64,000 nucleotides of DNA from assembly GCF_000013385.1 (NCBI RefSeq), contig NC_007760.1:620001-684000 (forward strand), given 5' to 3'. The translations under genes and the position numbers were made by a program. Source of the DNA: Anaeromyxobacter dehalogenans 2CP-C. GTDB taxonomy: Bacteria > Myxococcota > Myxococcia > Myxococcales > Anaeromyxobacteraceae. Position 1 is the stretch's first letter; every line of letters starts with the position of its first letter. Below, in pieces: positions 43,416 to 48,719 of the stretch. Below the pieces are notes generated by a model. It had not been told where the DNA came from and did no database searches. It was given only the letters and a program-made list of their open reading frames with translations.

Positions 43416-44216
43416 ATGATGCGCCGCGTGCCGCTGCCCTTCGTGAAGTATCACGGCCTCGGGAACGACTTCGTGGTGGTGGACGGGCCGCTCATGGACG
43501 CCGCGCGCGCCCGGCGGATCTGCGACCGCCGCCGCGGCGTGGGCGCCGACGGCGTGCTCACGGTCCTGCCGCCGCGCACCGCCGGCGCCGCCGCCACCAT
43601 GCACATCTTCAACTCCGACGGCTCGGTGGCCGCGATGTGCGGGAACGGCATCCGCTGCGTGGCCCGGCACCTCGCCGACGCCCGCGGCCTCGACGGCGAC
43701 CTCGTCCTCGACACCGACTCCGGCCCGAAGCGCTGCACCATCCACCGCGGCCCGGGCGGCGCGGTGGAGGCGGTCTCGGTGGAGATGGGCCCGGCGCGGC
43801 TCGAGGGCGAGCAGGAGTACCGCGTGGGCGGCGAGGCGCTCCGGGCGCTCCGCGTCTCGATGGGCAACCCGCACGCGGTGCTGTTCGACGCGCCGGAGCG
43901 GGCGCGCGCGCTCGCGGTCGGCCCCGAGCTCGAGCGGCTCGTGCCGGGCGGCGTCAACGTGGGCTTCGCCCGCCCCGGCCCGTCGGGCATCGACCTCGTG
44001 GTCTGGGAGCGCGGCGCCGGGCTCACCGACGCCTGCGGCACCGGGGCGTGCGCCGCGGCGGTGGCCTCGGTCTCGCGCGGCCTCGCCCGCGCCGGCGTGC
44101 CGGTGGAGGTCCGGCTGCCGGGCGGCGCGCTCGCCATCACCGTGGCCCCCGATCTCGTCGGCGTCACCATGCGCGGCCCGGCCGAGCGCGCCTTCACCGG
44201 CGAGACGGACCTCTAG
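43416..44216 (+). CDS. dapF: Diaminopimelate epimerase
   Basis: A 266-aa enzyme. It has KYHGLGNDFVVVD at the N-terminus and the two catalytic Cys motifs NSDGSVAAMCGNGIRC (first half) and ERGAGLTDACGTGACAAAV (second half). It interconverts LL- and meso-diaminopimelate for lysine and peptidoglycan. Starts at 43416 or 43419 (or GTG 43428) are possible; no strong ribosome binding site decides. Its stop directly abuts the next start, so it heads an operon with two regulators. Confidence 0.93.
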   Translation: MMRRVPLPFVKYHGLGNDFVVVDGPLMDAARARRICDRRRGVGADGVLTVLPPRTAGAAATMHIFNSDGSVAAMCGNGIRCVARHLADARGLDGDLVLDTDSGPKRCTIHRGPGGAVEAVSVEMGPARLEGEQEYRVGGEALRALRVSMGNPHAVLFDAPERARALAVGPELERLVPGGVNVGFARPGPSGIDLVVWERGAGLTDACGTGACAAAVASVSRGLARAGVPVEVRLPGGALAITVAPDLVGVTMRGPAERAFTGETDL

Positions 44217-46085
44217 ATGGCGAACGGGCGGATCCTGGTCGTGGACGACGAGCGCTTCTTCCAGGAGCTGTTCCGCGACGTGCTGGCCGGCGCCGGGCAC
44301 GCGGTCCGCACCTCGTCCTCGGCGGAGGAGGCGCTGGAGGTGCTCGCCGCCGAGCGCGTGGACCTGCTGCTCACCGACATGGTGATGCCGGGCCTGGACG
44401 GCCTGGGGCTCATCCGCGAGGCGCGGCGGCGCGACCCGGAGCTCGAGGTGGTCGCGGTCACCGGCCGCGAGGACGTGAAGCTCGCGGTCGAGTCGATGAA
44501 GGCCGGCTGCTCGGACTTCCTCACGAAGCCGCTCGAGCCCGGCGAGCTGCTCCGGGTGGCGGAGCGGGTGCTGGCGCGCGTGCGGCTCCGCCGCGAGCAC
44601 AGCCAGCTCCTCACCGAGAACCTCGAGTTCGTGAAGGCCCAGGCGCTCTACCGCCAGGGCCTGCAGATCCTCGCCACGCTGGACGGCGAGCGGCTGGTGG
44701 ACCTGGCGCTCTCGGTGCTGGCGCGCACCACCGACGCGCAGGGCGCGGCGCTGTGGGTGGCCGACGAGAAGGGGCAGCTCGCGCTGCGCGGCTACCGGGG
44801 CCTGGTGGACCGGGCGGCGCTGCCGGTCCGGGTGGACCCGCGCGACCCCGCGTTCGCCGACGCGCTGCGCGGCGGCGCGCCGTTCCAGGCGCCGGAGGGC
44901 TGGGGCGGCGAGGCGTTCCTGGTGCCGCTCGTGGCCGACGACGAGCCGCTCGGCCTGGCGCTGCTCTCCGACCGCGCCCGCGGGCGCTTCGGCCGCGACG
45001 AGCACGCGGCCGCGCTCATGGTGGCCGACTTCGCCGCCATCGCGGTGAAGAACGCGCGCCGCTTCCAGGCGGTGGAGCGGGTGGGGCTGCGCGACCGCGA
45101 GACCGGCGCGTACAACCTCTCCTACTTCGTGGACTACGCCGGCAAGGAGTTCTACAAGGCGCGCCGCTACGGCCGGGCGTTCTCGCTGGTGGTGCTCTCG
45201 GTGGACAACGTCGAGCAGCTCCGCAAGGAGGCGGGGCGCGAGCCGTTCCGGCGGCTGATGCGCGACCTGGTGGCCGCGGTGGGGCGCGCGGTCCGCGACG
45301 CCGACATCCTCGCGAAGGTCTCGGAGAGCGAGTACTACGTGCTGCTCCCCGAGACCGACTACTTCGGCGCGCTCATGTTCGTGCGCCGCGCCACCGAGGA
45401 GGTCCGGCGCGAGGCGTCGGTCCGGACCATGGAGGAGCGCGTGCCGGTGCTCCTCTCGATCGGCGCCGGCAGCTTCCCGAAGGACGGGGAGGACTTCGAC
45501 GAGCTGCTGCACTGGGCGCGCGACCGCGTGCAGGACCAGCGCGGCTCGCTCCTGCGCCGCCTCCACCTCGGCGACCTCGAGCCGGGCGCGTTCTGGGAGC
45601 TGACCGACGTGCTGCTCTCCGGCTCGGCGCGCCTGCCGGACAGCTCGGCCAGCGCGCGGCTGCAGCCCGACCCCGAGCTGTTCGCGGCCGCGCAGCGCGA
45701 GGCGGCCCGCGAGATCGCGCGCGACCCGCGCGCCCGGGGCCTGCTCTACGTGGGCCTGCGCTCCGCGCTCGCCGCCTCGCCGGTCCGGGCGGCCCTGCCC
45801 GCCGGCGATCCGGCCGCGCGCGCCGGCGATCCCTCCGCCCGCGTCTACCTGCTCGGCCCGCGCGGCACCGACGTCGAGGCGGCGCCGCACCCGCTCGTCA
45901 CCGAGGTGTACGTGGACGGCGACCAGCGCTTCGCCGGGCACGAGTTCCTGCTGTTCCTCTCCGAGCGCTCCGCCTACGCGCTGCTCTCCGGTCCGGATGG
46001 CCGGACGTTCCACACCTCCGACATGCCGCTGGTGGATGCGCTGGTCTCGAAGCTGCAGACCGCGTACGACCTCCAGCCGATCTAG
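44217..46085 (+). CDS. Receiver-GAF-degenerate GGDEF protein
   Basis: A 622-aa protein. The receiver (1-120) is complete: Asp10/11, phosphoacceptor Asp54, Thr82 and Lys104. A GAF domain lies at about 150-285. The GGDEF domain (about 295-430) keeps the fold (YNLSYFVDYAGKEFYKARRYGR, VLLPETDYFGAL), but the active-site motif reads SESEY (369-373), so diguanylate cyclase activity is unlikely. A 150-residue C-terminal region is unassigned. It probably acts as a signalling scaffold. Confidence 0.88.
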   Translation: MANGRILVVDDERFFQELFRDVLAGAGHAVRTSSSAEEALEVLAAERVDLLLTDMVMPGLDGLGLIREARRRDPELEVVAVTGREDVKLAVESMKAGCSDFLTKPLEPGELLRVAERVLARVRLRREHSQLLTENLEFVKAQALYRQGLQILATLDGERLVDLALSVLARTTDAQGAALWVADEKGQLALRGYRGLVDRAALPVRVDPRDPAFADALRGGAPFQAPEGWGGEAFLVPLVADDEPLGLALLSDRARGRFGRDEHAAALMVADFAAIAVKNARRFQAVERVGLRDRETGAYNLSYFVDYAGKEFYKARRYGRAFSLVVLSVDNVEQLRKEAGREPFRRLMRDLVAAVGRAVRDADILAKVSESEYYVLLPETDYFGALMFVRRATEEVRREASVRTMEERVPVLLSIGAGSFPKDGEDFDELLHWARDRVQDQRGSLLRRLHLGDLEPGAFWELTDVLLSGSARLPDSSASARLQPDPELFAAAQREAAREIARDPRARGLLYVGLRSALAASPVRAALPAGDPAARAGDPSARVYLLGPRGTDVEAAPHPLVTEVYVDGDQRFAGHEFLLFLSERSAYALLSGPDGRTFHTSDMPLVDALVSKLQTAYDLQPI

Positions 46086-46097
46086 GCGACCGCGCGA

Positions 46098-47564
46098 ATG
46101 GCCACCGTCCGCAAGATCCTCGTCGCCGATCCCGACCCGGCCACCGTGCGCGCGCTGGCGCCGGTGCTCCGGCAGCGCGGCTACCAGGTGCACGCGGCCC
46201 GCGACGGCTCGCGCGCGCTCCAGGCGGCCATCCTCCGCTTCCCGGACCTCATCCTGCTCGACGAGGACTGCCCGCTGCTCGACGCGCGCAGCTTCGTCCG
46301 CATCCTGCGCACCAACCCGCGCACCGAGCGCATCCCGGTGGTGATCACCGGCGCCTCGTCCGACCCGGACCGCTCGCGGCTCGGGCTCTACCTGCGCAAG
46401 CCCTTCAACCTGGACGAGGTGCTGGCGCGGGTGGAGCAGGTGTTCCGCCGCGCCGAGGCCTCCCGGGCGGTCTCCGGCGACGGCCGCGAGATCGAGGGCA
46501 ACCTGGCGCAGATCCCGCTCGTGGACCTGCTGCAGATCCTCTCGGTGAACAAGAAGTCCGGCACGCTCACGGTCGAGCGCGAGGGCGATCGCGCCTCCAT
46601 CGCGCTCGCCGAGGGGAGGGTGGTGGACGCGGCCATGGGCGCGGTGGTCGGCGAGAAGGCGCTGTTCCGCCTGCTCACCCACCGGGAAGGCCAGTTCGCG
46701 TTCCTCCCGGGCCTGCCGCCCGCGGCCCAGCGGATCGACCGGCGCGTCGAGGAGCTGGTGCTCGAGGGTCTCCGCCAGGCCGACGAGGTGGCGCGGCTGC
46801 TCCCGGAGCTGCCCGCGCCCGAGGACGGCGTCGAGCTGGCGGTCCACCCCAGCGAGATCCCGGCCGGCCTGCACCCGGTCACCGAGGAGGTGCTGGGGCT
46901 GCTGCAGTCCGGCGCCGCGCGCCCGTTCCAGGAGCTGCTCGACCGCTGCCGCGCCACCGACCTCGAGGCGATGCGCGCGGTGGGCGCGCTGCTCGAGCAC
47001 GGCTACGCGCGCCGGCGCGAGGCGCTCGCCCCGGAGCCGCGCGGCCAGCTCCTCGCGCCGCACGAGCTGCACGCGCTCCGCGCCCGCATCGCCCGCGGCC
47101 GCTCCTCGGGGCCGCAGACCGTCGGCAAGGTCGTCGTGGCCGGCGGCGGCCCGCTCGCGCGCCGCGCCGCGCTCTCGCGCTTCCAGGCGGTCCCGGGCTT
47201 CCGGCCCGAGCCGGAGCCGCCCGCCGGCGGCTTCGGGACGGTGGGGCGCGTCACGCTGGCCGACGGCGTGCGGGTGGACCTCGCCGAGCTGCCCGGCGAT
47301 CGCGCGCTCATGCCGCTGTGGCGGCCGTTCGCGGCGGGCGCGGTGGGCGCGCTGGTGCTCCTGCCCGCCGACGGGATCGACCCGCTGCTCGAGGAGCTGG
47401 TGAAGGTGCAGCGGCTGCCGGTGGTGGTGTGCGGGCCCTCGGAGGCGCGCGTGCCGGAGGTGCTGCGCGAGGCGCCGGGCGGCTTCGCGTTCGAGGGCAG
47501 CGACGCGGCCGAGGGGCTGCGCGCGCTCCTCGCGGGCGCTGGCGCGCGCGGGCCGCTCGTGTAG
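46098..47564 (+). CDS. Receiver-DUF4388 protein with GTPase-like tail
   Basis: A 488-aa protein. The receiver (1-115) has Asp55 and Lys101. A DUF4388 (PATAN-like) domain at about 128-215 includes LVDLLQILSVNKKSGTLTVER. The last 145 residues resemble an MglA/Ras-like domain: a first strand KVVVAGGGPLARRAALSRF (P-loop position), then VRVDLAELPGDRALMPLWRPF and GALVLLPADG. The P-loop lacks GKS/T, and the NKxD position is a GPS. It is therefore probably a pseudo-GTPase. It lies 12 bp after the preceding regulator. Confidence 0.85.
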   Translation: MATVRKILVADPDPATVRALAPVLRQRGYQVHAARDGSRALQAAILRFPDLILLDEDCPLLDARSFVRILRTNPRTERIPVVITGASSDPDRSRLGLYLRKPFNLDEVLARVEQVFRRAEASRAVSGDGREIEGNLAQIPLVDLLQILSVNKKSGTLTVEREGDRASIALAEGRVVDAAMGAVVGEKALFRLLTHREGQFAFLPGLPPAAQRIDRRVEELVLEGLRQADEVARLLPELPAPEDGVELAVHPSEIPAGLHPVTEEVLGLLQSGAARPFQELLDRCRATDLEAMRAVGALLEHGYARRREALAPEPRGQLLAPHELHALRARIARGRSSGPQTVGKVVVAGGGPLARRAALSRFQAVPGFRPEPEPPAGGFGTVGRVTLADGVRVDLAELPGDRALMPLWRPFAAGAVGALVLLPADGIDPLLEELVKVQRLPVVVCGPSEARVPEVLREAPGGFAFEGSDAAEGLRALLAGAGARGPLV

Positions 47565-48401: not shown

Positions 48402-48719
48402 CTACCCCGGCTCCAGCTCGGCCGCCGCGAGCGCCGCCCGCGCGACCGGGCTGGTGAGCAGCAGCCGGTACTCGGCGCGCGTCAGCCAGGCGGTGCGGGC
48501 GCCGCGCTTGCCGCGCAGCGTGAGCCGCACCCGCTCGGCGTCGCGCGCCACGGTGGCGGTCGCGCCGTCGGAGAGGTCGTGCTCGAGGGAGCGGAGGTGC
48601 CGGTGGATGCGCAGCGCGCGCTTCCCCTCGGGGGAGGAGAGCGCGAGGAAGTAGCGGTTCCGGCTGAAGCCCGGGTCCTCGCGGAGGCGCTCGACGGCGC
48701 GGATGACGAAGTCCGCCAT
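48402..48719 (-). CDS. Unknown small protein
   Basis: A 105-aa basic protein, with DFVIRAVERLREDPGFSRNRYF at the N-terminus and a C-terminal helix ending at AAAELEPG. It is probably cytosolic. The sequence looks like a real gene by composition and by the clean gap on both sides, but no family is recognised. Confidence 0.55.
   Translation of the reverse strand: MADFVIRAVERLREDPGFSRNRYFLALSSPEGKRALRIHRHLRSLEHDLSDGATATVARDAERVRLTLRGKRGARTAWLTRAEYRLLLTSPVARAALAAAELEPG

Follow-up and report, generated by a model that had tools for sequence, protein, structure and literature searches.

A Myxococcota response regulator with a predicted pseudo-GTPase domain, encoded beside a degenerate-GGDEF gene in Anaeromyxobacter dehalogenans

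The response regulator gene and its surroundings

The window analyzed here is a stretch of 64,000 nucleotides of Anaeromyxobacter dehalogenans 2CP-C, corresponding to bases 620001–684000 of the genome, which is a single contig of 5.01 Mb. On its plus strand, an open reading frame that starts at 46098 and whose stop codon ends at 47564 (46098..47564) encodes a response regulator of 488 amino acids, in which the reading frame, Pfam and AlphaFold2 together delineate a receiver domain, a PATAN domain and a C-terminal domain with a predicted Ras-like fold, termed the pseudo-G domain hereafter. The first-pass annotation had read this gene as a response regulator with a receiver and a DUF4388 domain, and the frame, strand, length and Pfam matches agree with that reading. 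Over the length of the response regulator, the homologue in Anaeromyxobacter sp. PSR-1 has 98% identity.

Three further genes lie in tandem with it. dapF, the diaminopimelate epimerase gene (43416..44216, plus strand, exact start not fixed), is followed by a gene for a receiver–GAF–GGDEF protein (44217..46085, plus strand), termed the partner gene, which carries SESEY at residue 369 in place of the GGDEF motif and stops 12 bp short of the response regulator gene. By the listed starts, the intergenic spacing is 0 bp between dapF and the partner gene, 12 bp between the partner gene and the response regulator gene, and 9 bp between the latter and a PhzF-family gene, so that the four genes look like one operon. 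A small protein of 105 amino acids with no clear family is encoded at 48402–48719 on the minus strand, and matches to it occur close to the block in many of the loci.

The receiver domain (residues 7–112; 46116..46433) matches Pfam Response_reg with an E-value of 3.1e-9 and contains D11, D13, D55, T84 and K101. In a set of 63 rows, D11, D55 and K101 are each present in all 62 rows that have a letter at the position; in a set of 34 rows that includes 20 distant ones, each of the three is present in 31 rows and T84 in 16. With a Pfam match over the cut-off, the acidic residue, the phosphoacceptor aspartate and the lysine, the protein is a two-component response regulator. The receiver is followed by the DUF4388/PATAN domain (Pfam stretch 133–230; 46494..46787; E = 6e-24), which scores 84.9 bits against PF14332, over a cut-off of 25, and is thus a member of that family. 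In the full-length AlphaFold2 model, further helices and strands continue after the Pfam stretch to about residue 310. After residue 230, there is no Pfam match at E-values up to 10. Across the genome, PATAN has 14 matches, which belong to several architectures.

Predicted fold of the C-terminal domain

The AlphaFold2 model of residues 316–488, built on a 34-row alignment, has a pLDDT of 86.2 and a pTM of 0.85. Its elements follow the order β1–α1–(short β)–β2–β3 hairpin–α2–β4–α3–β5–α4–β6–α5, which is the Ras order; in the numbering of the model, β1 spans 26–34, β2 (65–71) and β3 (76–82) are neighbours of each other, and α4 and β6 are short. The same C-terminal elements, except for the short β6, are present in the full-length model, in which the domain arrangement is not settled because its pTM is 0.44.

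Foldseek against the PDB returned 436 matches at E ≤ 0.001, the best with an E-value of 1e-5. By their titles, the best 50 of these 436 are Rab, Arf, Rho, Ras or similar proteins, fusions or complexes, with borderline TM-scores (0.42–0.56, many below 0.5) and large rmsd. In VIA-align, 820 of 1000 chains reached Z ≥ 8. Arf1 (3lrp) was at the top with Z = 11.2, and Myxococcus xanthus MglA (6h17), with Z = 10.8 and an rmsd of 3.8 over 150 aligned residues, is counted as tied with it. The best 50 of the 1000 chains are small GTPases by title, except 3aq4, whose title lacks a chain name. The fold comparison proposed in the first-pass annotation has thus yielded a G-domain-like model with MglA among its top structural matches, and the Ras/MglA strand order that had been read into the last part of the protein is borne out at the level of prediction. 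Taken together, these results point, with fair to high confidence, to a predicted Ras-like fold. Descent from a GTPase is less certain than the fold, given that sequence comparison gives no signal and that the receiver controls did equally well.

Sequence comparison was extended in several directions. Pfam searches with all 34 rows of the C-terminal alignment gave no GTPase, the best E-value being at chance level (0.034); no PDB sequence gave a match of note to the domain; and BLASTP against the MglA encoded in the same genome, which itself matches the Arf family, was not significant (E = 2.9). In hhalign, the probability was 0.1% against 26 MglA-type sequences and 0.7% when five Roc-type domains were added, both being shallow GTPase alignments. 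Two controls scored as high or higher: the protein's own receiver gave 0.9% against the combined MglA and Roc set, and the C-terminal domain gave 3.3% against the receiver (P = 0.013 over 30 columns). Sequence homology to GTPases as such was therefore set aside, all four methods being non-significant.

In a manual alignment, the β1/P-loop stretch KVVVAGGGPLARRAAL matches KIVYYGPGLCGKTTNL of the own-genome MglA without gaps, with 5 of 16 residues identical, and the switch-II/β4 stretch ELPGDRALMPLWRPFAAGAVGALV matches an MglA stretch of 24 residues without gaps, with four identical. This apparent register is not significant by itself. The weak hhalign alignments (columns 62–97 on 71–106, and 7–21 on 7–21) coincide with the same two stretches. 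As sequence methods detect no link, the putative homology to GTPases rests on the fold and the register.

Loss of nucleotide-binding motifs and retention of switch positions

The pseudo-G domain (residues 341–483; 47118..47546) was compared in 77 C-terminal domains, including that of A. dehalogenans. At the P-loop position, where a GTPase has GxxxxGK[ST], it reads GGGPLARR (residues 349–356; 47142..47165), within the stretch GGGPLARRAALS (residues 349–360). None of the 77 domains has the G1 motif GxxxxGK[ST], nor GK[ST] at columns 354–356; residue 356 is arginine or lysine in 70. The G3 motif DxxG at columns 397–400, which lies at the start of the switch-II position ELPGDRALMPLWRPF (residues 397–411 by the aligned columns; 47286..47330), is likewise found in none, G400 alone being present in 14. 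The G4 motif [NT]KxD is also absent from all 77; at its position, located at the end of β5 by the model and the aligned columns, stands VCGPSEA (residues 444–450; 47427..47447). Strings resembling GK[ST] (loci L035 and L072) and DxxGQ (L005 and L144) were considered and rejected as motifs, as they lie away from the motif columns. Claims made from the A. dehalogenans gene, that its P-loop lacks GKS/T and that NKxD is not conserved, accordingly extend to the whole set.

No working P-loop was found among 20 distant homologues or the 77 domains. A paralogue with intact motifs was also sought in the same genome, where the domain profile (E up to 1) had a single match, the response regulator itself.

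The positions that would correspond to the switches are retained. G380 and P406 are present in all 77 domains, L407 in 73, W408 in 71 and T381 in 62. Among 41 rows below 80% identity, G380 and P406 are again invariant, followed by P399 (39/41), K344 and L407 (37/41 each) and W408 (35/41); K344, G380, P399, P406, L407 and W408 fall in the β1, switch-I and switch-II positions. These conserved tryptophan, proline and glycine positions may belong to the core of the fold instead of its surface. With a Ras-like model, no nucleotide motif in 77 domains and kept switch positions, the domain is, by predicted fold, a pseudo-GTPase. It is not a member of the GTPase family, whose defining motifs were tested for and are absent, and could still act in a GTPase-like way through protein binding.

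Over eight pairs, dN/dS is 0.07–0.40 for the pseudo-G domain and 0.03–0.71 for the receiver and PATAN domains of the same pairs, values to be read with caution as dS is compressed and unreliable at this high G+C content. In the two closest pairs (L001/L002 and L036/L041), the pseudo-G domain has the highest dN/dS of the three domains. Given the conserved positions and a dN/dS similar to that of the receiver and PATAN domains, the pseudo-G domain seems not to be a remnant in decay.

Linkage to a degenerate-GGDEF gene

The main new observation is that the pseudo-GTPase gene adjoins a degenerate-GGDEF gene and co-occurs with it across Myxococcota. In 61 of 62 loci, the partner gene is the next match upstream and lies on the same strand, with a gap of at most 80 bases between the matches except in L154, where it is 858. 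dapF precedes the partner gene in 51 of the 62; of the 11 loci without a dapF match, six are at a contig end and five have room for the gene (L152, L153, L156, L157 and L160). phzF has no match beside the response regulator gene in the Myxococcus loci.

The GGDEF domain of the partner matches PF00990 over the cut-off, and its motif lacks the GG in 60 of 60 rows, the commonest form being SDQEF (24 rows), so that it departs from the active-site pattern GG[DE]EF. The partner has a conserved C-terminal domain of its own, of about 140 amino acids and ending in FHTSD...LV..L..KLQ..YDLQ, for which neither Pfam (17 rows) nor PDB sequences gave a match of note. In 195 Myxococcota genomes, the profile of this domain matches 130 and that of the pseudo-G domain 127, the latter mostly with one copy per genome. 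Both profiles match in 124 genomes, neither in 62, that of the response regulator only in three (G015, G118 and G159) and that of the partner only in six (G022, G089, G163, G187, G193 and G194), which gives a Fisher P of 8e-40 in a statistic that ignores kinship. Among these nine exceptions, both genes are in fact present in G163 and G193; G118, G159 and G194 are cut off by contig ends, as are G022 and G089, judging by their coordinates; and G015 has a fragment only. In G187 (L210), an unrelated frame of 270 aa, near a contig start, comes after the partner gene, and this genome appears to be without the response regulator gene.

Similarity between the trees of the pseudo-G domain and the partner C-terminal domain was also considered. 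The correlation is 0.91 over 24 taxa, the highest raw value, and 0.89 over 25 taxa when the partner receiver is left out; in 500 bootstraps it ranks first 397 times as a raw and 319 times as a partial value, and it does not rank first in the nearer 14 taxa or in the farther 14. It is not robust and is treated as no evidence. An identification of the partner with a motility gene named 'TmoP' was dropped: the literature gave no paper under that name, and the part of PMC4877007 consulted names TmoK, a hybrid kinase.

Distribution in Myxococcota

The profile searches covered Myxococcota genomes, and a single-protein scan of contigs kept 79 loci of 166 relatives. Among these 79 loci, the matches that extend past the PATAN domain carry Myxococcota-type titles, save L061 (Comamonas) and L072 (Deltaproteobacteria). 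In L061, titled Comamonas sp. KCTC 72670, the gene lies within a Myxococcus-type neighbourhood, which probably reflects an error in the title or in the assembly. A Myxococcus xanthus strain (L048) carries the gene.

Some genomes of the same family, among them G011, G013, G016, G018 and G021, have no profile match to the pseudo-G domain, which suggests losses. The profile search evaluated a small number of candidates in each genome, and at least two true copies, those of G163 and G193, escaped it, so that the lack of a match does not prove absence. Occurrence in 127 of 195 genomes, together with the range of dN/dS, indicates that the pseudo-G domain is more than a product of chance.

A phosphorylation-gated adaptor as the best explanation

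Small GTPases signal through a switch face that is presented when GTP is bound. As the switch positions of the pseudo-G domain are conserved and its nucleotide motifs are gone, it is simplest to suppose that this face is gated by the receiver rather than by GTP, and that the partner it meets is always the same. The best explanation, to which we assign a probability of about 0.5, is that the protein is a phosphorylation-gated, nucleotide-independent adaptor that works with the upstream partner. A histidine kinase would phosphorylate D55 of the receiver, and the resulting change would be transmitted via the PATAN domain so as to expose or hide the pseudo-G domain, phosphorylation thereby serving in place of GTP as the on/off signal. 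The switch-I and switch-II positions (FGT and PLWRPF) would then dock a partner in the manner in which a GTP-loaded small GTPase docks its effector. By gene linkage, from which we infer it, the upstream receiver–GAF–pseudo-GGDEF protein, whose own enzyme motif is also gone, is the strongest candidate and the likeliest docking partner, with its conserved C-terminal domain. Because the enzyme or nucleotide motifs of both proteins are broken, the pair probably works by partner binding, not by chemistry.

As to the process that the pair would control, surface motility and cell-envelope growth are the leading candidates. Motility is favoured by the cyanobacterial record of PATAN proteins, the location of PATAN genes near some mglA genes and the co-occurrence of PATAN proteins with SgmX (see below), and cell-envelope growth by the presence of dapF in the block. 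A wider view, in which the two genes form an ancient unit, phosphorylation having replaced GTP for a Ras-type domain that kept its effector face and works in a fixed pair with a pseudo-diguanylate cyclase, both proteins being presumably inactive as enzymes and maintained jointly throughout Myxococcota, is offered tentatively and is itself rather doubtful.

Two other functional readings are unlikely in our assessment. One, raised in the first-pass annotation as competition with MglA-type polarity switches, is that the pseudo-G domain mimics MglA and, by binding MglB, RomR/RomX or an MglA effector, adjusts polarity or the sites at which type IV pili are placed. In its favour, MglA ranks with the tied best structural matches, every one of the 127 genomes with the pseudo-G domain also has an MglA-type match, and the 11 MglA-negative genomes are without a match to the domain. 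However, almost all genomes of the phylum (184 of 195) have an MglA-type match, so that this co-occurrence says little, and 57 genomes match MglA and not the pseudo-G domain. Some mglA genes are reported to have PATAN genes in their vicinity (PMC4316618), and PMC11580455 reports that the MglA effector SgmX co-occurs with two M. xanthus PATAN proteins, which are possibly other than the present one. In A. dehalogenans, by contrast, the response regulator gene lies at about 666 kb and mglBA at 4,162 kb, with the one Roadblock match of the genome at 4,163 kb, beside mglA. Sequence comparison shows no link to MglA, and the genomic neighbourhood points instead to the adjacent degenerate-GGDEF gene. 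About 10 kb separate mglBA from a PATAN gene in this genome (4,162–4,174 kb; L161 and L176), in agreement with the published PATAN genes near some mglA genes (PMC4316618).

The other, of similarly low probability, is that PATAN is the working part, docking on the pilus motor PilB in a PixE-like manner, and that the pseudo-G domain only stabilizes or dimerizes the protein. The Pfam match of PATAN is strong, and a review links cyanobacterial PATAN response regulators to type IV pili (PMC7690835); PixE–PilB1 binding is given there as a hypothesis, and the title of a paper cited there states the interaction. However, the pseudo-G domain is under constraint similar to that on PATAN and its switch positions are kept, which is more than expected of a spacer, and with 14 matches in several architectures in one genome, the occurrence of PATAN is by itself no sign of pili. 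Of 24 M. xanthus GGDEF, EAL and HD-GYP proteins, moreover, only DmxA, SgmT and TmoK are important for pilus-dependent motility according to the part of PMC4877007 consulted, a set in which the partner may or may not be included.

Less probable still is that the C-terminal domain is another Rossmann-like α/β module that resembles a GTPase by convergence. This would suit the silence of the sequence comparisons, in which the domain profile matched its own receiver slightly better than MglA, and the borderline Foldseek scores, but it sits poorly with the small-GTPase titles of the best 50 rows of both fold searches, with the β2–β3 hairpin in the Ras position and with the two gap-free stretches on which hand and hhalign alignments agree. 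Binding of nucleotide in a non-standard way, for which the basic residue at the serine/threonine position of the P-loop (R/K in 70/77) and T381 (62/77) might speak, is very improbable, given that the G1, G3 and G4 motifs are absent from all 77 domains and that conservation of the P-loop stretch does not extend to distant homologues.

The preferred adaptor reading, if true, would mean that a phylum-wide bacterial pseudo-GTPase is tied to a phosphorelay and that the face of a G domain can be rewired to another input. M. xanthus is genetically tractable and one strain carries the gene, so that the idea could soon be tested, with the partner as a specific binding target.

Comparison with known systems

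The pseudo-G domain model shares its fold with M. xanthus MglA (Z = 10.8, 150 residues), and with the own-genome MglA the domain shares the PG...G..G spacing through switch II and β4 and a lysine at the start of β1. Unlike MglA, it is without the P-loop, the glutamine after PG and NKxD, has no detectable sequence similarity, and is fused to a receiver and a PATAN domain; its gene is away from mglBA and is unpaired with mglB (Roadblock/LC7). A second MglA-like protein of 230 amino acids, whose P-loop is intact and which carries a C-terminal extension, is encoded elsewhere in the genome at about 4,970 kb (L178:1285–1977).

The pseudo-GTPases in the literature found are eukaryotic, and no bacterial receiver–pseudo-GTPase was found in the open-licence literature consulted. 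Pseudo-GTPase domains are known from p190RhoGAP (PMC5593906, in the part consulted), which likewise carries a GTPase-like domain within a multidomain signalling protein; here, unlike there, the host is a bacterial two-component response regulator, and loss of nucleotide binding is suggested by the sequence. FrzS, AglZ and RomR are M. xanthus response regulators that interact with MglA (PMC4316618; PMC11580455) and, like the present protein, are response regulators for protein–protein signalling. None of them is described, in the parts of these sources consulted, with a G-domain fold, FrzS consisting of a pseudo-receiver and a coiled coil. In PixG, PixE and LsiR, as presented in the consulted part of PMC7690835, receiver and PATAN are combined in one protein as they are here, and to this combination the Anaeromyxobacter protein adds a third, predicted Ras-like domain at the C-terminus.
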